Source: an uncultured Clostridiaceae bacterium
Lineage (GTDB): Bacteria; Bacillota; Clostridia; Lachnospirales; Lachnospiraceae
Assembly: GCA_949841235.1 (NCBI GenBank)
Contig: CATKZA010000015.1
Location: 1-11,270, forward strand
Direction: 5' to 3'
Length of the DNA: 11,270 nucleotides
Under the pieces are notes generated by a model. It was given only the letters and a program-made list of their open reading frames with translations. It had not been told where the DNA came from and did not search any database. Both the position numbers and the translations under genes were made by a program. Below are positions 1 to 9,437 of the stretch, in pieces; the stretch's first letter is position 1, and the number at the start of each line of letters is the position of its first letter.

Positions 1-2894
1 TTTTTCGGTACTTTGACCACCGCTTTCTTGTGGATTCCCTTCAGGGCGTTCTTTCCCACCTTTTTCAACTTCGCAGTCTTAACCGTAATCTTTTTCAGCG
101 ACTTGCATCCGCTGAATGCGTTTTTGCCAATGGTGACGATGTTCTTTCCTATGGTAATCTTTTTCAGTTTCGTGCATTTCTTGAATGCATTGGCTCCCAC
201 AGATGTAACAGCGTAGGATGTTCCATTGGTGCTGACTTTTGCGGGGATGGTCAGGCTCTTGGCCTTCTTGCTCTTCGCCCCCTGCACTGCCACTGCCGTC
301 TTTCCTGCCGCGGCACTGGTCACCTTGTATTTGAGTTTCCCCGCCGCAAAGGCTGTTCCCACGGACAATGCCTTGCTCTTGCTTCCTGTCTGGTTGTCGG
401 GTCCGGCACTTGCATCGGGCTTTTTAATCGGCTCTGCGCTGGGTTTCACATCAGGCTGGGTACTGGGTGCCTGACTAGGCTTTGCGCTGGGCTCCGTGCT
501 GGGCTTTGCACTGGGTTCCGTGCTGGGCTCTGCACTGGGCTCCGCGCCGGGCTCTGTGCTAGGTTCTGCACCGGGAGAAGCGACCGGCTCTTCTACGGCA
601 TTTTCATCCACCGTGATCCTGCACGACGCATCCTGTCCCGAATAAGTCATGGCATGAACGATGGTCACCCCCTTCTTGATGCCTGTGACGGTGCCGTCCT
701 GGGCTACCTCCGCAATGCTTCTGTCCTCGCTGAACCACAGAATCTTCTCCGTGGTATTCTCCGGCATCAGCGTGGCCGCCAGAGCCACCACGTTGCCGGG
801 ATGAACTCCCACGCCGTCCTTTGCCAAGGACAGGGCTGTTGCCGGGACTTCAGCCGGGGCATAGTCTTTTTTCAGAACGGCATCCTTGACCGTGACCTTC
901 ATGGTTATGGTGTTGACGCCATCCACGTAATATTCTTCCGGGAAACTGCATCCATTGTCCTTGCCCTCATTCTTTGTCAAATCCGTGATACAGTTTGCCG
1001 GCTCATACCAATAGTTCAGCATGCAGATATCCGGCACGGTTCTCTTCCCGGTGGGCTTGTCATTCTTATATTCATCTTCTTCCTCATAGGGAAAAGTTTT
1101 GTTGCTCATGGTACAATCACGGCCATTGAACTGCAAGTTTTCCACCTCGAAGACTGCGCTGTTAAGGATGGATGTCTGGGATACCTCCCGATGCACTGTC
1201 ACGTCCTTGATGAAGAGGGTGTTCAGCGTGGACATCTGATCCTTGCTTCCCGAGAGCGAGATGGTAAAGCCTCCTCCGCCATCTTCTGTCAGTTCCAAGT
1301 AATTGTCCCCCTCCAGCATGTTCCAATCATACGAATTATTGGCATAGAGTCCCGCCTTGAATGTTTTTGGCTGCTTCACTTTCACCATGCAGCAAGCGGA
1401 TGCGCCCCCCTGCACGGTGGCCGTAATCAGGCAGGTACCTGCGCCTTTCGGCGTAACGGCTCCCTTGTAACTGACAGCGGCTACCGTGGTATCGCTGCTC
1501 TCCCACTGGATCATGTCCTTAGCGTCCGCCGGGGTCAGGCTTGCCTTGAGGGCTTTGGCACCGTCCACCATGTCCAGTTCCATGGTTTTCTGATCCAGCG
1601 TGATGGCTGTTGCCGTGCCTTCTTTCTTGTCATAGGCGCTCATGATTGCCTCTAAGATACCCGGCTGGGTCACTTTGTATGTCTTTCGGTCAAATATGCC
1701 GAATCCCAGATCCCCGTTCCATCCATTGTCCCAGTATACGGGGATGCAGCCGGTCTGAAGGCTGGTCATGCACAGAACGGCCGCATAGGTGGCACGGAAC
1801 TTATTGTTTTCCGGATCAGGCTCCCCCCATGCGTCCAATCCAGAATCCTTCTTGGTGCTTTTGTCGATGGAGCCATATTCGCCTATGACTACCGGATAGC
1901 CCTTGCTGGTGAATGTTTCTTTGAGCTTGGCGAACTGTTTCGCCATATCGTCCTCCTGGCCGTAGCCTACCTTTTTGCTGCTGTCTCCCTCTTCTCCCCA
2001 CTGGGTGATAGTGTAGTCTTCCTTTCCGCAGAATGCCCAGGGCTGATAGTAATGCACGGATATCATGATGCGCTTCTGTTCTTCTGGTATCTCTCCGCTG
2101 CGGTGGGTGTCCTCGGGGATTTCAAACCCATAGTCCCCGGTGGTATAATCGATGTCGGTATTCATGCCGGGCACCAGAAGCCAGCGTTTGTCATTGCTGC
2201 CGCCGCTCTGACGCACCGTATCCACGAAGATCTGGTTGTAGTCGTTGATATTTTGATAGGCGCTCCGAATCTCTTCATCGGTAATGCCATCTTTTTCCAA
2301 GATGTTCGCCCCGATCTCGTTCATAGACTCGAAGATCAGGTGATGGTCATAATCTTTGAACCGGGCGGCAATCTGCTTCCACACGGCCTCATATTTCGTC
2401 TTGATCGTATCCTGATCACTAGCTCCCGGAAGAATCCAGCCACCGGTGACCGTGGAATATCCGTCCCCATGGATGTTCATAATGACATAGAGCTTATACT
2501 TGATTGCCCAGTCCACCACCTCCTGCACCCGGTCGAGCCAAGCTTTGTTGATCGTGTAATTGGGCGATGCGCCAATCTTTGACAGGTAGGATACCGGAAT
2601 GCGGATGCTTTTGAATCCGCTGGTTTTCACCGTGCGAATCATGCGCTCGGTAACCTTTACTCCTGACCAGGCATCCTCCGCCGGCGTGCCGTTGCTGTTG
2701 GCCTCCAGCTGATTGCCCAGGTTCCATCCGGCTCCCATGGCTTCTACAATCTCCTGCTGGTTCAGGTTCTGGAACCCCGTCTCTTCTGCCGATGCCCTGC
2801 CGCCCGGCTGTCCTGGGGCAATTTCCCACCCCGAGGTCAGCACGAGGGCAATGGCAAGCAGAAGGGCTAGGATTGTGCCACTTTTTTTCTTCAT
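1..2894 (-). CDS. Secreted multidomain GH5 endoglucanase-type glycoside hydrolase, C-terminus cut by window edge
   Basis: An open frame starts at 2894 and runs off the left edge (about 964 residues visible). Residues 1-36 form a signal peptide: KKK, a hydrophobic core, and a likely cleavage after ASA36. The GH5 domain covers about 45-400: WNLGN at 57-61, NIHGDG at 140-145, MNEI at 191-194 with E193 the probable acid/base, SVHYYQPW, and GEYG with E339 the probable nucleophile. It should hydrolyse a beta-1,4-linked plant polysaccharide outside the cell; the substrate is not readable. Next come a Big_2-like Ig domain (about 428-510), an unassigned module (about 511-671), a second Big_2-like domain (about 675-760), a Pro-Ser linker (about 768-825) and BspA-like LRRs with KKITIGKNIVTIGKNAF near 905. 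The usual NEP is NEI here. AAGGGAG lies 3-4 bases before the start. It follows the LRR protein gene by 136 bp with no clear promoter of its own, so cotranscription is likely. Frame and GH5 assignment are firm; subfamily (perhaps GH5_4-like) is uncertain. Confidence 0.93.
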   Translation of the reverse strand, partial: MKKKSGTILALLLAIALVLTSGWEIAPGQPGGRASAEETGFQNLNQQEIVEAMGAGWNLGNQLEANSNGTPAEDAWSGVKVTERMIRTVKTSGFKSIRIPVSYLSKIGASPNYTINKAWLDRVQEVVDWAIKYKLYVIMNIHGDGYSTVTGGWILPGASDQDTIKTKYEAVWKQIAARFKDYDHHLIFESMNEIGANILEKDGITDEEIRSAYQNINDYNQIFVDTVRQSGGSNDKRWLLVPGMNTDIDYTTGDYGFEIPEDTHRSGEIPEEQKRIMISVHYYQPWAFCGKEDYTITQWGEEGDSSKKVGYGQEDDMAKQFAKLKETFTSKGYPVVIGEYGSIDKSTKKDSGLDAWGEPDPENNKFRATYAAVLCMTSLQTGCIPVYWDNGWNGDLGFGIFDRKTYKVTQPGILEAIMSAYDKKEGTATAITLDQKTMELDMVDGAKALKASLTPADAKDMIQWESSDTTVAAVSYKGAVTPKGAGTCLITATVQGGASACCMVKVKQPKTFKAGLYANNSYDWNMLEGDNYLELTEDGGGGFTISLSGSKDQMSTLNTLFIKDVTVHREVSQTSILNSAVFEVENLQFNGRDCTMSNKTFPYEEEDEYKNDKPTGKRTVPDICMLNYWYEPANCITDLTKNEGKDNGCSFPEEYYVDGVNTITMKVTVKDAVLKKDYAPAEVPATALSLAKDGVGVHPGNVVALAATLMPENTTEKILWFSEDRSIAEVAQDGTVTGIKKGVTIVHAMTYSGQDASCRITVDENAVEEPVASPGAEPSTEPGAEPSAEPSTEPSAKPSTEPSAKPSQAPSTQPDVKPSAEPIKKPDASAGPDNQTGSKSKALSVGTAFAAGKLKYKVTSAAAGKTAVAVQGAKSKKAKSLTIPAKVSTNGTSYAVTSVGANAFKKCTKLKKITIGKNIVTIGKNAFSGCKSLKKITVKTAKLKKVGKNALKGIHKKAVVKVPK
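412..594 (-). repeat. Pro-Ser-rich linker repeat inside the GH5 gene
   Basis: This stretch encodes a tandem linker of the form PSxxP (PSTEPSAKPSTEPSAKPS and variants) made of imperfect 12-base units around CCCAGC. It separates the second Ig-like domain from the C-terminal LRR. A similar block sits in the neighbouring surface-protein gene at about 3365-3545. Such linkers are typically extended and are common in secreted clostridial enzymes. Edges are approximate. Confidence 0.8.
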
Positions 2895-3030
2895 GCTCTC
2901 TCCCTTCTCTTCTTTTCTACTCCCTGCATCTCTTGCCGTGAAGAACGCTGGCTTTGCGTTCTTCTTACATGCAACTTAGACGTTCCCAGCCAGCGTTTTT
3001 TGCTGACCTTGAACCGTCTTTGCATGTTAT
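2895..3030 (-). other. LRR-GH5 intergenic leader with overlapping inverted repeats
   Basis: This 136-bp gap lies between the stop of the LRR gene and the start of the GH5 gene. It holds three perfect inverted repeats: a 9-bp stem 2940-2948/2956-2964 with a 7-base loop (GAAGAACGC arms), a 9-bp stem 2944-2952/2989-2997 (AACGCTGGC with GCCAGCGTT), and an 8-bp stem 2967-2974/3020-3027 (ACATGCAA with TTGCATGT). The first two share bases and exclude one another; the second and third interleave as a pseudoknot would. Six T residues follow the second stem only on the plus strand (2996-3001), where no gene needs a terminator. On the coding strand no T-tract follows any stem, so read-through into the GH5 gene is expected. 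The GH5 ribosome site (AAGGGAG) is about 35 bases beyond the last stem. Confidence 0.55.
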
Positions 3031-6000
3031 CTATCTCACTTTGACTTTCTTCACCTTGCTCCACTTGCCGTAATATTTCTTGCCCTTCACGGTCTTATAG
3101 GCTCTGACTCTGACATAATATTTCTTCTTCCTCTTAAGCCTCTTGACAGTCTTCTTCACAGTCTTTGCCTTCTTGACAGTGTAGGTTTTCTTGCCCTTTT
3201 TAAATGTCTTGTTCAATGCAATCTGTACCTGGTAGCCGGTAACGCCTGAGACTTTTTTCCACTGTACGGTAATGGTCTTTTTCTTGGTGGATTTCACCTT
3301 CTTAAGCGTCACCTTCTTCACGCTGACTTTCTTGGTGTTTGCCGTGCCGCCAGGAGTTTTGTTAATCTGGGAACCACTTGGGTCTTTCGTGGTCTGTCCC
3401 CCCGGATCCTTGGTGGGCTGGGTGCTGGGTGCCCCGCTGGGCGATGCGCTTGGCTTTGTGCTGGGGCTTGTACTTGGCTTTGTGCTGGGATTAGTGCTGG
3501 GCTCTGCGCTAGAGGGCGTGTCCGGATTCTTTGACGGCTCTGCCCCCGGGTCTGTCACCGATGCTTTTACCAAGGCCGCCATGGCATCCTCCACCTTCTT
3601 CTTTGCCTCTTCCACCTGGGAAATCTTGGTGGCATCCTTGCAAATCTCCTGCGCCTCCTTAATAGCCGCCTGGAGGGCTGCCCAGCTTTCGGGAGTATAG
3701 TCCGCCTCCTTCAACGCCTGTGCTTCCTTGATTGCCTGCTCAACCTCTGCCTTCGGCCCCTCTACAGGTCGAAGGACGATATCGCCCAAGGCCTTCCGCA
3801 ATCGCTTATCGCTCTGGATAATTTCCGTGAGGGTAGCATCCCCCTTCTGCAAAACCTCTAGCGCAAGATCCCGCTGATCCAAATAATCGAACCATGCGTC
3901 CGCACCATCTCCATCGGTGTCATAATCTGACTCTAAGATGTCCAATGTCTTCTGATAAGTGGCTCTCAGGAAAGGCTTTGCCCCGGCAGAAATGCTGTTG
4001 ATCGCCGCCGTCCTGTTGGTAATCTTGTCGTAGACAGTCTCCCCCTTGGCAAACAGAGTCTCCGACTCGGAAAGAACCGTCTGGAATGCCTCCCACAGCT
4101 CCCCATCGTAGTCTGCCGCCGTAAGTTTGCCCGCCTCTTCCTTGACTGCGGCATACTCTGTCTCCAGATTAGCCAAAACCTCGCTCCTCTTGTAGAGAAT
4201 CTCCGATGCCAGCCAGCCGGCTTGATGAGTTCCCCGGCTCGCTAAGAGATCGTAGGTTGCGCCGTCGCAAAGGATCATGGCCGTCTTGGGCGCTCCGGCG
4301 AATGTGCTGTCATAACTCTGTCCGCCATCAGTTGACGTAGAACCCACAAGGGTATCGTCAGCGTAATCGTCCTTTTCAAACTCTAGATATTCCAGCCGGC
4401 TAAGCCCACGCAATGCGTCTTTGTTAATCTGCGTTACCGTAGCCGGGATGATCAGTTTCTTTATTCCGGAATAATAAAATAAACTCGCTGGAAGAACAGT
4501 CATGCTCGCCGGAATCTCAAAGGTCTCCAAATTTTTAGTATATCCAAATACACCATCCCCTATATTGACGCATCCCTCCGGCAATGTAATGGAAGTAATG
4601 CCCGAACCATAAAAGCAACGACTGCCAATAGTCGTCACGCCGTCTGGTATGGTTATCTCTTTCAGGCTTTCACACGCATTAAAGCAATATTCCCCAAGCG
4701 TCGTTACTGATGCCGGTATGGTGACGCTGGTGACATTCTTGCAGCCAGCGTAAAAATAATCGGGGATTGTCGTAATATCCTTGGGAAGAGCCAGTTCTGA
4801 CACGCCGCTTCCATAAAAGCAACGACTCCCGAAGGAAGTAATCTTATCCGCTGCATACTCGATCTTCGTAACGCTCCAGCATTCATAAAAGAGCATATCC
4901 GGTATTTCTGTAATATTCTCATTGAGAGCCATGGTTCCGGTAAGTTTCCTGCATCCATTAAATGCAGATTTGCCTACGCTGGTCACCTTGGTGGTCAGCA
5001 CGTTCTCCGCCTCCCAGACCCAACAGCCGGAAAATGCGCTCGCCCCTATGCTGGTCACCGTATCCGGCAGACTAAAACTTGTCATCCAGCGCAGATTGCT
5101 GAAAGCATAATCCCCAATCCTGGTCGGGTTCACGCCCTCCTTCACCACCACCTTCTCCAATTCCAAACGATAAGGTTTATACCAAGGCGCACTGTTTGCT
5201 GCATAATCACTCTCCACAGCGGATGCCTCGGTAATCGTCAGAGTATGGGTTCCGTTATGGTAGGTATAGCCGGTACCCGGTATCTCTCCGTAGACTCTGA
5301 AAGCCGCCGGATTGCTGGTGGTCTCAAAGGCACTGTCCGTGGCAGTGGCAGTAGCGCGCACGAAATAATCCCCCGCCACCGTGGGCTTAGCGCTTGGATT
5401 ATTAGCATCCACCGGATTCCGGCATGCCACATCTGTATAGTAGGCGTATGTCACCGATGCGCCCTGGGCGTTCCCCGTCACCTTCGGCTCTATCGGTGAA
5501 TCGATGTCGTAATTCTCCTGACTCAGATGAAGGGTGGTTTCCTTCCCCTTTATGGCGGCAAAATCATCCTCGGAATCCACAACCTGGAGGTTTGCATAGG
5601 TACCCATGTTGGTAGCTGCGCTCAAATGATAGATGACAGGCTTGGATGTTATAGCGTTATAAAAACTTGCACCTATTTTAGATGTAAGCTTCGTCCCTTT
5701 CATGTATATTCTCTTAAGGCTATCGCAGCTTTTAAATATGGTAGTATTGTTTAGATTTTTCACAGAAGAGATGTCCACATATACCAAGGCCGAACAACCG
5801 TCAAAGATCTGGGAGGCATCCTTTAGTTCCACATTGGGAATGTTCACCGATGTCAAACTGGTACAGCCCCTTGCAAAACTAGCGGCATTGCCCAATTCAG
5901 TCATTGCAGGCAGGTCAATCGTCTCCAGGGAAGTACAATTCATAAATGTGTTGTTGGCACTGATGGACATCAACTTCGGAAAAGATATGGTCTGGATCTT

Positions 6001-6828
6001 TGCACAGCCATAGAATGCGGAGCCACCTGTGATAGTGGTCAGTTCCGGCAGATTGATGGCCTCCAAGACATTGCAGGTGTTGAATGCGCTCTCCCCAAGG
6101 CTTCCCACGTTGGGGGCATCCACCTCTTTCAGTGCCTTGCAGTTCTGGAACGCCTGCTTTCCAAGAACCGTAGCACCTTGGAAATGAATGGCTGCCAAGG
6201 AACTGCATCCGTTAAATGCACCCTCCGGCACTGCCTCCACGCTGGGCATGTTCACCGCTTTCAGCCCGCTGGATTTGAAGCAGTTAACCCCCAAGGTCGT
6301 CAGTTTCTCCGTTCCGGTCAGCGTCTCCAGCAACGTGGTTCCGTAAAAGGAATGATCCCCTATCTCTGCCAGTTCTTCCGCTGCGCCAAAGTCCACTTCC
6401 TCTACCTGATTGTAGTTATAAAACATATATCCGCCGACCTTGGTCACATTTCCTGTAAATACAATCTTCTTAATGTCGTCCTTGTTCCCATACCAAGGCA
6501 ATCCCGCATAGGTACTGCTGGTGTAATCGGGTATGGCACCCTCGCCGCTGATGGTCAGCGTCCCGGTCCCTGCGGCAAAAGACCACTTGTGGGTGTCCGG
6601 GGTAATCTCCGCCCCGGTGCTGTCCTTCTCTCCTCCGAAGGTGCCGCTGGCCGTCACCGCATCTCCCTCGTCACTGGCGGGAACTCCCCCTTCCTGCGCG
6701 GCAGATGCCTTCCAATCGCCACCCCCTGCCGCCGGGATGCCCGCAACTGGCAAGCCGGATAGCACCAGTGCCGCAGATAGCGTCAGCCCAAGCACTTTTC
6801 GCTTCATTGTTCTCTTCTTTGTCTTCAT
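3031..6828 (-). CDS. Secreted BspA-like leucine-rich-repeat surface protein with FIVAR and FN3-like domains
   Basis: The 1265-residue product starts MKTKKRTMKRKVLG and has a signal peptide over about 1-32. Two blocks share one plan: a beta cap (GTLTISGEGAIPDY...PWY near 88-115, and HTLTITEASAVESDYAAN...PWY near 522-550), each followed by BspA/LRR_5 repeats of the type IGDYAF...LPDTVTSIGASAFSGC (to about 430 and 855). Between them is an Ig/MBG-like domain (about 434-512). Then come two FIVAR-like helical units (about 885-950 and 1026-1090), a PSTxPS linker (about 1096-1154) and a very basic FN3-like domain (about 1170-1265). There is no LPXTG signal or membrane anchor, so it is secreted or held to the wall non-covalently. 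BspA-family LRR proteins commonly bind host or polymer ligands; the ligand here is unknown. An AGGAGG lies about 13 bases before the chosen start; M8 is an alternative. Its upstream DNA carries the putative invertible promoter. Confidence 0.93.
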   Translation of the reverse strand: MKTKKRTMKRKVLGLTLSAALVLSGLPVAGIPAAGGGDWKASAAQEGGVPASDEGDAVTASGTFGGEKDSTGAEITPDTHKWSFAAGTGTLTISGEGAIPDYTSSTYAGLPWYGNKDDIKKIVFTGNVTKVGGYMFYNYNQVEEVDFGAAEELAEIGDHSFYGTTLLETLTGTEKLTTLGVNCFKSSGLKAVNMPSVEAVPEGAFNGCSSLAAIHFQGATVLGKQAFQNCKALKEVDAPNVGSLGESAFNTCNVLEAINLPELTTITGGSAFYGCAKIQTISFPKLMSISANNTFMNCTSLETIDLPAMTELGNAASFARGCTSLTSVNIPNVELKDASQIFDGCSALVYVDISSVKNLNNTTIFKSCDSLKRIYMKGTKLTSKIGASFYNAITSKPVIYHLSAATNMGTYANLQVVDSEDDFAAIKGKETTLHLSQENYDIDSPIEPKVTGNAQGASVTYAYYTDVACRNPVDANNPSAKPTVAGDYFVRATATATDSAFETTSNPAAFRVYGEIPGTGYTYHNGTHTLTITEASAVESDYAANSAPWYKPYRLELEKVVVKEGVNPTRIGDYAFSNLRWMTSFSLPDTVTSIGASAFSGCWVWEAENVLTTKVTSVGKSAFNGCRKLTGTMALNENITEIPDMLFYECWSVTKIEYAADKITSFGSRCFYGSGVSELALPKDITTIPDYFYAGCKNVTSVTIPASVTTLGEYCFNACESLKEITIPDGVTTIGSRCFYGSGITSITLPEGCVNIGDGVFGYTKNLETFEIPASMTVLPASLFYYSGIKKLIIPATVTQINKDALRGLSRLEYLEFEKDDYADDTLVGSTSTDGGQSYDSTFAGAPKTAMILCDGATYDLLASRGTHQAGWLASEILYKRSEVLANLETEYAAVKEEAGKLTAADYDGELWEAFQTVLSESETLFAKGETVYDKITNRTAAINSISAGAKPFLRATYQKTLDILESDYDTDGDGADAWFDYLDQRDLALEVLQKGDATLTEIIQSDKRLRKALGDIVLRPVEGPKAEVEQAIKEAQALKEADYTPESWAALQAAIKEAQEICKDATKISQVEEAKKKVEDAMAALVKASVTDPGAEPSKNPDTPSSAEPSTNPSTKPSTSPSTKPSASPSGAPSTQPTKDPGGQTTKDPSGSQINKTPGGTANTKKVSVKKVTLKKVKSTKKKTITVQWKKVSGVTGYQVQIALNKTFKKGKKTYTVKKAKTVKKTVKRLKRKKKYYVRVRAYKTVKGKKYYGKWSKVKKVKVR
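3365..3545 (-). repeat. Pro-Ser-Thr linker repeat inside the LRR gene
   Basis: These bases encode tandem PSTxPSxxPS units, such as PSTNPSTKPSTSPSTKPS, built from imperfect 12-base repeats. The linker joins the FIVAR pair to the basic C-terminal domain. Its sequence and position before a lysine-rich end match the linker of the adjacent GH5 gene, so the two proteins share a C-terminal design. Edges are approximate. Confidence 0.8.
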
Positions 6829-7062
6829 AGGCTAGTTTCTTCCTCCTTCTCCATCTGGCGAATGGAAACCGATGCCAACGCAAATCCCTATTCACAGCAT
6901 CTTGCACATCCCCATTCTCTTGTCTCTTTGTTCCCTCCTTCTCAATACATACCCTTGTGTATCTTTATATGAAAAGACAAACGCTGAGGCACAAAATCCA
7001 TTGCCCCTCCCTTTGCCTAATTCTCATAACGCAGCGATTCCTATCCGTCATGCCAAAACAAG
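6829..7062 (-). other. Upstream leader of the LRR surface-protein gene
   Basis: This non-coding 234-bp stretch lies between the LRR start codon and the left recombination-site dyad. On the minus strand it holds two purine-rich Shine-Dalgarno-like runs, AAGGAGG near 6840-6850 (used by the LRR gene) and GAAGGAGGG near 6930-6940 (no convincing ORF behind it). A TATAAA lies near 6965-6972, but no acceptable -35 box sits 16-19 bp upstream. I therefore see no strong fixed promoter for the LRR gene here, which fits the idea that transcription enters from the invertible segment. Confidence 0.5.
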
Positions 7063-7100
7063 TGGCCATACCACATAATATGGATTATGTGGTATGGCCA
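7063..7100. repeat. Left inverted repeat / dif-like recombination site
   Basis: This is a perfect 17-bp dyad: TGGCCATACCACATAAT at 7063-7079, a 4-base centre ATGG at 7080-7083, and the complementary arm at 7084-7100. The inner 27 bp (7068-7094) recur exactly, in reverse complement, at 7331-7357. Read as a Xer-type site it is an 11-bp arm ending CATAA, a 6-bp asymmetric centre TATGGA, and an arm starting TTATGT, the layout of bacterial dif sites. The outer TGGCC bases are not shared with the right copy. Confidence 0.85.
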
Positions 7101-7273
7101 TAGACAAAAAGCATTGAAGGACTATCACATGATGGGATGAACAGCCTCCAAAGCATATTTCTAGAAAAGAACCAGACTCTTATGTGCAAGCGAGGCGATC
7201 CTAGTCTATCTCTAGAAATAGTTGTGAATAGTTACCATTAAAAAGGATACTGTAATTCTTTCAATAATTTTCA

Positions 7274-7302
7274 TTGAATTTATAGATTTTATATGTTATA
7301 AT
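7274..7302 (+). promoter_or_regulatory. Sigma-A-type promoter inside the invertible segment, facing right
   Basis: The -35 box TTGAAT (7274-7279) and the perfect -10 box TATAAT (7297-7302) are 17 bp apart, with AT-rich sequence upstream that could act as an UP element. Transcription would start near 7309. It points away from the surface-protein genes and towards the 3' end of the recombinase gene, in antisense to it. I found no comparably good promoter on the opposite strand of the segment. Confidence 0.75.
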
Positions 7303-7330
7303 GAGAATCAAGTTGAAATTTATGTAATTT

Positions 7331-7357
7331 TACCACATAATCCATATTATGTGGTAT
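7331..7357. repeat. Right inverted repeat / dif-like recombination site
   Basis: This dyad has 11-bp arms, TACCACATAAT (7331-7341) and ATTATGTGGTA (7346-7356), around the centre CCAT (7342-7345). With one flanking T it is the exact reverse complement of 7068-7094. The centre reads ATGG in the left copy and CCAT here, so the sites have defined and opposite orientation. It ends two bases before the recombinase stop codon. Confidence 0.85.
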
Positions 7358-7361
7358 TTTT
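7331..7361 (+). terminator. Terminator formed by the right repeat plus a T-tract
   Basis: On the plus strand the 11-bp stem with a 4-base loop is followed directly by TTTTT (7357-7361). It lies about 20 bases downstream of the expected start of transcription from the 7274-7302 promoter. The stem is AT-rich, so strength is uncertain. The T-tract overlaps the complement of the recombinase stop codon. The left repeat is not followed by a good T-tract in the leftward direction, so the same stem should not stop transcription in the ON state. Confidence 0.5.
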
Positions 7362-8211
7362 ATATTGTGAGCACAAGCCCCATATCTTCTAGGATTTTTC
7401 GATGTTTTTGACTGGGCGTCTTGATATAGATTCTTGTCGTTTCAATACTACTGTGACCTAAAATATCCGCCGTCTTGCCGATATCTTTTCCCAACTGGTA
7501 ATAGGTTTTCGCAAACAGATGCCGCAGATTGTGAGGATATACTTTTTCTTTTTCCACCCCCGCCTCCTCGCAAAGCATCTTCATCTCCTTCCAGATATTG
7601 CTCCGATCCATTGGCCTGCCACTAGAGGTGCAGAACACCGGTCCGCTGTCCATCCCTTCCCGTCGGATGTACTCCAGCAGCAGCATCTGGAGGCTTCTGG
7701 GAATCAAAACCCGCCGCTCCTTTCCCTTGCAGGAAACATCGGCCATGCCGTTCCTCACCGCATCCACCGTGATCATCCCCAGCTCGCTGACGCGTATCCC
7801 CGTGGCGCAGATGGTCTGAATCACCAGTGCCAGCCTGGTCCTGCCATCCGCCATGGCCGTCTCCACCAGCCTCTTATATTCCTCCCTGCTCAGATCCCTA
7901 TTTTCCGGAGTGAAGGTCTCCTTCTGCACTTTGCAGGTCTTTACGCACAAATCATGCCAGCCCATGTAGCTCAAAAAGCGATTAATCGCTACCAAGTAGG
8001 AGTTGATGCTGCTTGTCTTATACTGTTTGCATCCCATTAACGCCTCCTTATATTCAATCATTCGCTTCTTGGTCAATTCTTCTTTCCCCGCAAAAGCCAT
8101 CAGTTTCTTCACATCCCTGATATACTTTTGTATCGTGGTACTGCTTTTTTCCTCTTCGTAGAGACATTGTTGAAAATTCCTGATAGATTGCTCCGTAATA
8201 ATTCTTTTCAT
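7360..8211 (-). CDS. Tyrosine site-specific recombinase (XerD/phage integrase family), probable DNA invertase
   Basis: The 283-residue protein has the two-part plan of tyrosine recombinases. An N-terminal SAM-like DNA-binding domain covers about 5-95 (MKRIITEQSIRNFQQ...). The catalytic domain follows, with R140 (ATGIRVSEL), a Lys in KGKERRVLIP (162/164), H227 and R230 in PHNLRH, H253 in GHSSIETT, and the nucleophile Y262 in TRIYI. All catalytic positions are present and the length suits the XerD type, so it should be active. I start it at 8211 because AAAGGGGG lies 7 bases upstream; an in-frame ATG at 8286 would add 25 residues but has poor ribosome-site spacing. There is no phage or conjugative gene nearby. 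The stop codon is two bases from the right inverted repeat, so its natural substrate is probably the 7068-7357 segment. The family is certain; the invertase role is inferred from position. Confidence 0.93.
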   Translation of the reverse strand: MKRIITEQSIRNFQQCLYEEEKSSTTIQKYIRDVKKLMAFAGKEELTKKRMIEYKEALMGCKQYKTSSINSYLVAINRFLSYMGWHDLCVKTCKVQKETFTPENRDLSREEYKRLVETAMADGRTRLALVIQTICATGIRVSELGMITVDAVRNGMADVSCKGKERRVLIPRSLQMLLLEYIRREGMDSGPVFCTSSGRPMDRSNIWKEMKMLCEEAGVEKEKVYPHNLRHLFAKTYYQLGKDIGKTADILGHSSIETTRIYIKTPSQKHRKILEDMGLVLTI

Positions 8212-8218
8212 GGCACTT

Positions 8219-8226
8219 CCCCCTTT
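8219..8226 (-). promoter_or_regulatory. Ribosome binding site that sets the recombinase start
   Basis: AAAGGGGG on the minus strand lies 7 bases before the ATG at 8211. The upstream in-frame ATGs at 8286 and 8235 lack a well-spaced Shine-Dalgarno sequence, which favours the shorter protein. Confidence 0.65.
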
Positions 8227-8316
8227 TCCTTCCATGAACCCTAATGCCGAAAGTTCCTTTCGACACGCCGATTCAAGATAAATCATTTCCCTTTATAGTA
8301 TCATGCGTAAAAGAAT

Positions 8317-8349
8317 GTTACTATTCACGGCTTCGCCAATCATAGCAAC
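8317..8349. repeat. Imperfect hairpin with a GTTACTATTCAC arm
   Basis: Arms of 15 bases around a TTC loop pair at 10 of 15 positions (GTT, CTAT and GGC blocks). The arm GTTACTATTCAC matches 11 of 12 bases of the complement of GTGAATAGTTAC at 7224-7235 inside the invertible segment, so the two copies point in opposite directions. It lies in the untranslated leader of the recombinase gene. It could be a dispersed small repeat, a structured leader or a protein site; function is unknown. Confidence 0.4.
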
Positions 8350-8367
8350 AAAAGAATACATATCTCT

Positions 8368-8376
8368 ATTGTATCA
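8368..8376 (-). promoter_or_regulatory. Possible extended -10 promoter of the recombinase gene
   Basis: On the minus strand, TGATACAAT is an extended -10 (TGn then TACAAT, five of six bases matching TATAAT) about 157 bases before the recombinase ATG. There is no good -35 box at the right distance, as extended -10 promoters allow. This is a weak prediction. Confidence 0.35.
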
Positions 8377-8665
8377 CAATTCAATTATTTCTAGCGTGCA
8401 ACATCGTTATTCCATGTCATTTGACAAAATTTTTCTTCCATTTTAGGAAGATGTATGATATGATATTATATTAAATAACACAAAAATAAGCAGGCAAACA
8501 GTCATATCTGCTTCGCAGACAACACTATATAGATAAGTCCACGGATTGCTTCAGTTTTTTATTTCTTTGAAATTATGGGATATAAATATAGAAGCATGAC
8601 GGCAAGATATTTTCGAATATGAAAGTAATATAAGGTAATGAGATGGCATTTATAATAAAGCAAAA
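8377..8665. other. AT-rich intergenic stretch between divergent genes
   Basis: No coding frame of note is seen here. The stretch holds TTGACA at 8421-8426 on the plus strand without a properly spaced -10, a short dyad TCTTCC/GGAAGA at 8434-8451 next to it, TATGAT at 8454-8459, and a 5-bp hairpin TCTGC-TTC-GCAGA near 8507-8520. It probably carries the promoter of the small plus-strand genes, but I cannot choose one with confidence. Its base composition is clearly more AT-rich than the large genes on either side. Confidence 0.4.
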
Positions 8666-8680
8666 ATGGAGGATATGCAT

Positions 8681-8923
8681 ATGGCTGATTTATCAGAAGC
8701 TATGATTGGTACTAAAAAGCAAGAAGTATTTCTAGCAATTGATTTTTTGGGAGTATTTTTTTCCATGTTAAAACAAAGAAACAAAAACGTTGTATCAAGT
8801 AAGATATTATTTGACACCATAGGAAAGCATTGCCAAGAGTTCATGGATTTGTTTTTGGATATAGATGTCAGAAATAATTGTGGGGTATATTTTTCACAAG
8901 ATATAGAAGAGGGCATGGGATAA
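8681..8923 (+). CDS. Small hypothetical protein (80 residues)
   Basis: The frame begins MADLSEAMIGTKKQEVFLA and ends EEGMG. I start it at 8681 because GGAGG at 8668-8672 lies 8 bases upstream; the ATGs at 8666 and 8675 overlap that site or sit too close to it. The product has mixed charge, a short hydrophobic run (IDFLGVFFSML) too weak for a secure membrane helix, and a Lys/Asn-rich middle. I recognise no family. It is the only plus-strand gene region in the window, is AT-rich, and is followed without any gap by a second small ORF and then by a strong terminator, which supports a real transcription unit. The opposite-strand frame of similar length looks like a shadow. Confidence 0.55.
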   Translation: MADLSEAMIGTKKQEVFLAIDFLGVFFSMLKQRNKNVVSSKILFDTIGKHCQEFMDLFLDIDVRNNCGVYFSQDIEEGMG

Positions 8924-9095: not shown

Positions 9096-9437
9096 CTACG
9101 TAATCGCATACAGCAATTCCACGATCTGCTTGATATTCTCCAGCGTCCCCCGCTGGTAAGCCGTCTCCTTCTCCAACTCATGGGCCACGTTATTTACCTC
9201 GAAAGCCGTAGCCAGCAAATCATTCAGAAGATCCTCAATCGTATCCGAAACCACCTTAATGTCCTTCTCCCCATCCTCTTTCATTTCCAAGACGCACTGG
9301 CGTATCACATCAATCCCGCTCACCAGCTTATCCGTTATATTGATAGAATCAAAGGACATCTGCTCCAGAGAATCCAATGAGTTTTCCATCCGGTCAAGCA
9401 CCAATTCCGTCGTATGTTCCGTTGCCTTTACACCCAT
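9096..9437 (-). CDS. Uncharacterised helical (coiled-coil-like) protein downstream of radA
   Basis: The 113-residue product, starting MGVKATEHTTELVLDRMENS, is acidic and almost wholly helical in pattern, with heptad-like spacing of Leu, Ile and Val and no signal peptide or membrane segment. The C-terminal part (about 65-110, DTIEDLLNDLLATAFEVNNV and onward) is loosely like the helical signalling region of chemotaxis receptors, but too short and too weak for assignment. It starts only 3 bases after the radA stop codon. Its ribosome site (GGGGGTG, 9 bases before the ATG) lies inside the last radA codons, so the two are surely cotranscribed and probably coupled. Function is unknown; a coiled-coil partner or regulator is a guess. 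Confidence 0.8.
   Translation of the reverse strand: MGVKATEHTTELVLDRMENSLDSLEQMSFDSINITDKLVSGIDVIRQCVLEMKEDGEKDIKVVSDTIEDLLNDLLATAFEVNNVAHELEKETAYQRGTLENIKQIVELLYAIT

Follow-up and report, generated by a model that had tools for sequence, protein, structure and literature searches.

The 11,270-nt window makes up the whole of contig C15 in a draft genome of 2.1 Mb, 66% complete and split into 404 contigs, from a gut-type bacterium. It carries what is very probably an invertible-promoter ON/OFF phase switch, in which one recombinase gene accompanies two crossover sites and a promoter lies between these sites. The sites, their exactly inverted cores, the promoter match and the asymmetric flanks are all present at the locus, the arrangement is conserved among relatives, and related loci occur in opposite orientations. 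From these sequences we infer that the segment flips at the window's own locus, with the recombinase acting on both sites and the promoter driving expression in an orientation-dependent manner.

Paired putative crossover sites beside a tyrosine recombinase gene

Two 27-bp repeats in inverted orientation (7068-7094 and 7331-7357), which an earlier note had taken as the bounds of an invertible segment, proved 100% complementary on sequence comparison, with 236 nt between them and 263 bp from start to start. Each repeat corresponds to a near-perfect palindromic 28-bp site consisting of an 11-bp arm, a 6-bp asymmetric core and a second 11-bp arm. Because the arms are palindromic, the direction of a site is given by its core alone (TATGGA or its reverse complement). 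The putative crossover site proximal to the leucine-rich repeat (LRR) gene (S2, 7068-7095, no strand assigned), delimited from the sequence and from within-pair core identity across the family, reads ATACCACATAA TATGGA TTATGTGGTAT in the 11-6-11 layout. Its recombinase-proximal partner (S1, 7330-7357, likewise unstranded and defined from the sequence) has the core TCCATA on the + strand and the same arms, save for the outermost inner base. The predicted invertible spacer (7096-7329, unstranded) lacks a sizeable ORF, as the earlier note had also observed: none reaches 70 aa, and the longest lying entirely within the repeats is 34 aa. The draft genome contains one site pair, in one orientation, and a pattern search of that genome found no second copy of the sites; Rfam gave no match anywhere in the window.

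Only 2 bases separate the nearer repeat from an ORF for a 308-aa tyrosine recombinase (7360-8286, - strand), which was assigned from profile matches (PF00589 and PF02899) and alignment and is XerA/XerD-like. Its active site had been described as intact, and the R, K, H, R, H and Y columns, which we take to be the catalytic residues of tyrosine recombinases, were indeed invariant across 24 aligned relatives. A weak promoter-like match upstream of this gene (8339-8368, - strand; 9/12 consensus matches) lies outside the invertible segment. Beyond RadA, a 113-aa protein (9096-9437, - strand) had no Pfam match and a weak CheA-like similarity far below cut-off.

On the other side, 239 nt from the S2 repeat and reading away from the segment, lies the gene that we infer to be switched (3031-6828, - strand). 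It encodes a secreted BspA-type LRR protein of 1,265 aa with profile matches to PF13306 in five stretches, weak FIVAR and fn3 matches just below the Pfam cut-offs, and an N-terminus that appeared signal-like by eye. A candidate ribosome-binding site, AAGGAGG (6842-6848, - strand; identified by eye), precedes the LRR start codon (ATG) by 13 nt, which is a long spacing. The next gene, open at the window end, encodes a GH5 cellulase-like secreted protein (3-2894, - strand; ORF with profile matches to Cellulase, Big_2 and LRR_5). The promoter scan gave no promoter-like match at the junction of the two genes (2700-3100), and their co-transcription is possible.

Conservation of the module and its core signature

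We searched for the same module in a first collection of 150 genomes of the window's family, taken to be Lachnospiraceae, 32 of which contained recombinase homologues (E ≤ 1e-40), the window's genome included; within the window's genus, homologues at E ≤ 1e-60 were present in 13 of 28 genomes, again counting its own. A total of 107 distinct homologous loci were compared, many of which end before a module could show, and these yielded 59 modules, 41 by a strict rule, under which both sites must be palindromic with exactly inverted cores, and 18 by a relaxed one. Among the 70 usable loci (>200 bits and at least 400 bp downstream), a strict pair lay just beyond the stop codon in 40, compared to 1/66 upstream of the gene and 0/61 at +2.5 kb; 20 shuffles gave a mean of 0.0. 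Allowing either rule, a pair occurred at the gene 3' end in 58/70 loci, against 1/66 upstream and 0/61 at +2.5 kb, an enrichment over controls that excludes chance pairing. The module was absent by both rules from the other 12; one of these (L151, the same locus as L030) is the sole homologue with a pair upstream of the recombinase.

A second collection, comprising the best 80 of at least 568 relatives from an alignment search and therefore leaning to closer relatives, gave a similar picture. Seventy-five of the 80 lay outside the first set and 66 were usable; the module was found in 63/66 of these loci drawn from the best 80 of at least 568 (46 strict), with 0/59 in the upstream control and three loci without it (L170, L183 and L235). 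The records were nearly all labelled as Clostridia, with one labelled Erysipelotrichaceae. When other tyrosine-recombinase loci were taken from a PF00589 search of 21 genomes, the module was present in 0/30, these 30 being drawn from a longer match list. A single-sequence search of genome and viral contigs with the window recombinase returned no relative, while the alignment search did find relatives. The closest relative found (L102, 64% identity) has the same core as the window, and spacing across the 122 modules had a median of 262 bp. Some homologous recombinases contain an in-frame stop, including three beside site pairs (L110, L122 and L137, one stop each); these modules may be locked, or a paralogue may serve them. 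Three loci in Hungatella hathewayi WAL-18680 (L053, L061 and L063, genome G149) have extra or duplicated sites in the segment, with site gaps of 318 and 783 bp in L053 and a spacing of 774 bp in L061, and are possibly multi-state switches.

The sites themselves have a distinctive signature. Choosing sites by their arms only, with the core ignored, gave 106 pairs from 136 loci (15 others had a single site and 15 none). Cores were exact reverse complements in 105 of these 106 pairs, which include close paralogues and are not 106 independent cases, and none was palindromic; the exception was L061, in which the rule picked an additional site in direct orientation. Core positions mismatched in 0-1% of comparisons within pairs versus 22-74% between loci. 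Overall, there were 75 distinct cores, and two loci had a core in common in only 50 of 5,565 comparisons. The arms behaved in the opposite way, being alike between loci and partly mismatched within pairs; the consensus of the sites is TACMACATAA-N6-TTATGTKGTA. Strand exchange limited to six bases would require just this pattern, and we know of no other reading that predicts matched cores with variable arms. Across the 106 pairs, inner half-sites agreed better than outer ones (20% versus 42% mismatch at position 10), a difference that may show which of the arms is cut first. Both the presence of the module in 58 of 70 homologues and the near-universal core inversion lend strong family support to recombinase-driven phase switching, as the earlier note had proposed from the window's layout.

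In the first set, we took the longest ORF (200 aa or more) whose start falls within 800 bp of S2. This ORF reads away from the site in 48/59 modules and towards it in 5/59 (4 of which have a longer away-reading ORF behind), with no such ORF in 6/59. Downstream proteins of 34 of these 59 modules, 35 proteins in all, hand-chosen and not always the first gene, were scanned with Pfam, which revealed clear envelope or surface families in 16 of the 34 loci (LRR, FIVAR, teichoic-acid or LicD enzymes, polysaccharide synthesis, choline-binding, SpaA/LPXTG, Big_2 and List_Bact_rpt); 7 of the 35 proteins had no Pfam match. The downstream gene of the closest relative, L102, encodes an LRR-FIVAR-fn3 protein, and in L104 a FIVAR protein is followed by a GH5 cellulase, in the same order as in the window. 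Two modules (L114 and L101) sit before a helicase gene, and a second integrase-like protein (PF00589) is encoded downstream of the module in L117, L122 and L040.

Candidate promoter, candidate terminator and orientation

The window segment contains a promoter-like match, TTGAAT-17-TATAAT with a TG before the -10 element (7274-7302, + strand; 10/12 consensus matches), aimed at the 3' end of the recombinase gene. A second match with an equal hexamer count (7313-7341, + strand) points in the same direction and extends into S1. The best promoter score in the segment was 11.5 compared to 8.0 on the opposite strand, and a consensus scan of the stretch from the segment to the LRR gene found nothing promoter-like on the - strand. 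Since scanning 6700-8700 gave 7 matches versus 5.5 in shuffles, the window match by itself is no proof. It is the family that lends it weight: 61 of 122 segments contain a clear promoter, compared to 4.8 in shuffles, and the other 61 lack one by the rule used. Of the clear promoters, 49 point towards the recombinase and 12 towards the downstream gene, which suggests that the assemblies are mostly in the OFF state where the state can be called. The window is probably also assembled in the OFF state, given that its promoter match faces away from the LRR gene.

As assembled, the predicted transcript would reach S1 after ~20 nt. The bases after S1 read TTTTTATATT, so that the arrangement resembles a terminator. 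This candidate hairpin with its T-run (7331-7366, + strand) faces the OFF-state promoter and was identified by scan, folding and a T-tract bias across the family. The scan found 4 terminator-like sites, compared to 1.4 in shuffles, with the S1 and S2 palindromes both scoring, and the stretch 7309-7368 folded at -15.5 kcal/mol (z -4.0). In the first set, a T-tract followed S1 on the recombinase side in 33/59 modules and S2 on the gene side in 3/59 (p = 8e-8); the bias was weaker in the second set (19/63 versus 9/63, p = 0.003), and 70 of the 122 modules have no T-tract at S1. Inner-side T-tracts at S1 were rare (3/59), so S1 probably does not serve to terminate transcription of the recombinase gene itself; rather, it often seems to double as a terminator catching the OFF promoter. 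At S2, the assembled orientation forms a 17-bp perfect hairpin (7063-7100, - strand; sequence, scan and folding) that may, as a weak suggestion with no support across the family, block leftward read-through in the OFF state. In the 61 clear-promoter modules, we asked whether the hairpin at either site is stronger in the OFF orientation, following the model for cwpV of C. difficile. Stem length did not differ significantly (p = 0.72 at S1, 0.09 at S2), and for hairpin energy p was 0.049 at S1 and 0.08 at S2; we make no claim for such a pattern, although the window itself fits it at S2.

These features would fit together as follows. The recombinase would bind the 11-bp arms of both sites and exchange strands within the matching 6-bp core. 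With the cores in inverted orientation, this exchange would flip the segment that the sites enclose. In the assembled orientation, the promoter would fire towards the recombinase, giving an OFF transcript of ~55 nt (start ~7309) that is probably stopped at the S1 palindrome and T-run, and the LRR gene would be OFF. After inversion, the promoter would face the LRR gene, with transcription predicted from mirrored coordinates to start at ~7116 and produce a leader of ~290 nt. This ON transcript would cross S2, which would have no T-run directly behind it, and the cellulase gene behind the LRR gene would perhaps be ON as well.

Comparison of orientations among related loci, a check raised in the earlier note, gave five homologous pairs with agreeing flanks and an inverted segment. 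Overall, 107 module pairs had alignable homologous segments, 13 of which aligned best inverted; many of the same-direction pairs were paralogues of one Hungatella genome. The five pairs (L159/L162, L177/L233, L101/L114, L109/L110 and L117/L122) have identical cores and collinear flanks: the recombinases share 73-86% identity, and the best downstream blocks, which align in the same direction, share 73-82%. The inverted alignment spans the full segment in L117/L122 and a portion of it in the other four; for L177/L233 there is also a weaker match in the same direction. Counting inward from the core centre in L101/L114, 30 bases at one site are the exact reverse complement of those at the opposite site. 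Two of the pairs (L109/L110 and L117/L122) are paralogues within one genome, with a recombinase-frame stop in L110 and L122. In a sixth comparison (L101/L116) the segment was inverted and the downstream regions were unlike. Contigs ended within 450 bp downstream of the recombinase in 29/99 loci (9/75 in the second set), compared to 4/99 (3/75) upstream, and two contigs end or begin exactly in a site (G155 C243 and G175 C149). These breaks fit mixed orientations or shared sites in the sampled population, and could also arise through repeats alone.

Several other explanations deserve weighing against a working switch. The locus could be a switch by descent that is locked here, with a silent or inactive recombinase and the LRR gene stably OFF. 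A single orientation in a single assembly and the in-frame stops of some homologous recombinases agree with this reading, which we nevertheless consider improbable, as the window recombinase is full length with catalytic columns invariant over the 24 relatives and its two sites match over 27 bp. Far less probable is that the palindromes are mere transcription terminators flanking an intergenic region, with no recombination. Both do score as terminator-like, and S1 has the stable fold and T-run described above, but terminators have no need for a locus-specific asymmetric core that is exactly inverted in its partner in 105/106 pairs, and they would leave unexplained both the attachment to one recombinase clade and the inverted segments between collinear flanks.

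The 11-6-11 layout also resembles that of dif, the site of the XerC, XerD and XerA housekeeping recombinases. This layout and the XerA/XerD-like protein lend some appeal to the idea that the sites are attachment or dif-like resolution sites of a mobile element or chromosome rather than parts of a switch. We give this very little credence: the sites are inverted, not direct, in all but one of the 106 pairs, their spacing is short, and their cores vary between loci. XerC, XerD and XerA act on one chromosomal dif, in contrast to two inverted private sites beside a gene, and the window protein reached none of the NCBIfam cut-offs (153.1 bits versus 220 for XerA, 115.5 versus 329.6 for XerD and 111 versus 335.15 for XerC). 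An invertible-promoter switch is thus the reading that we favor.

Relation to known switches and implications

The E. coli fim switch controls a surface structure, as is predicted for the window. It has two recombinases and short repeats, whereas the window has a single recombinase and sites that are long, palindromic and built round a locus-specific core. Promoter inversion with FimB and FimE encoded nearby is described for fim (PMC2784873), and the window has a candidate promoter within the segment and a recombinase gene next to it. The likeness to RecV-controlled switches of C. difficile that the earlier note had drawn holds in part: RecV/cwpV and the window share a site-specific recombinase, inverted repeats ~200 bp apart and a surface protein gene, as well as a proposed intrinsic terminator acting in the OFF state (PMC2784873). 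The likeness does not extend to the promoter, which lies outside the inverted region in cwpV and has its match inside it in the window, or to the repeats and enzyme, cwpV having imperfect 21-mers with recV elsewhere and the window perfect 27-bp repeats with the recombinase 2 bp away (PMC2784873). With no promoter-like match found between the segment and the LRR gene, and with an adjoining recombinase, the window differs from the cwpV type on both counts.

Among published kinds, inverton group 139 is probably the closest, as judged by geometry, host class and neighboring enzyme. According to the available sections of PMC11892184, this group comprises 33 invertons in the hCom2 gut community, 32 of them from class Clostridia, and nearly all have a tyrosine-type recombinase of invertase group 35 within 5 kb. 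The example given from Clostridium sp. D5 has 26-bp repeats that are 231 bp apart start to start (computed from coordinates), and its orientation shifts over culture passages in reads (PMC11892184). The window matches these groups in its Clostridia host, a class indicated by its relatives, and in its adjacent tyrosine recombinase and compatible repeat length and spacing (27 bp and 263 bp). Elsewhere, out of 66 Firmicutes samples, 15 were reported to contain putative inversions, and 14 of these came from Clostridia (PMC5903667, available sections), and the available sections of PMC10939037 contain nothing on this switch class. In the literature searched, which included few subscription papers and the available sections of PMC11892184, we found no description of a locus-specific 6-bp core or an S1 terminator.

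The invertible-promoter kind of switch is already known, and these two features stand out at the level of the family. Bacteroides is where invertible promoters are best known. For Clostridia, an enzyme clade that comes with a recognizable paired site would allow switches to be called from assemblies, with no need for reads. More tentatively, and with slightly less than even confidence, we propose that a Clostridia-wide recombinase clade moves about as a self-contained switch cassette in which each copy has a private 6-bp code and the recombinase-side site often serves as an OFF terminator. If so, the code would be identical within a copy's two sites and change freely between loci, crossover itself may keep the two cores matched while the code drifts, and a genome with many copies would have many surface loci switching largely independently. 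For the window organism, the LRR surface protein, and perhaps the cellulase, would be predicted in only part of the population, and many related bacteria have the same module, often beside other surface genes. Matched, locus-specific cores would also offer a testable model of how recombination specificity drifts and could predict which loci cross-react.

We also considered selection for distinct cores within a genome and do not claim it, as genome G155 has TGATTA on 7 contigs and TAAAAA on 2. The TGATTA sites of this genome are spread over C30, C45, C89, C156, C181, C205 and C243, and in 5 of these 7 contigs a site lies within ~70 bases of the contig end; with a common core and sites so close to contig ends, crossover between distant loci is possible.
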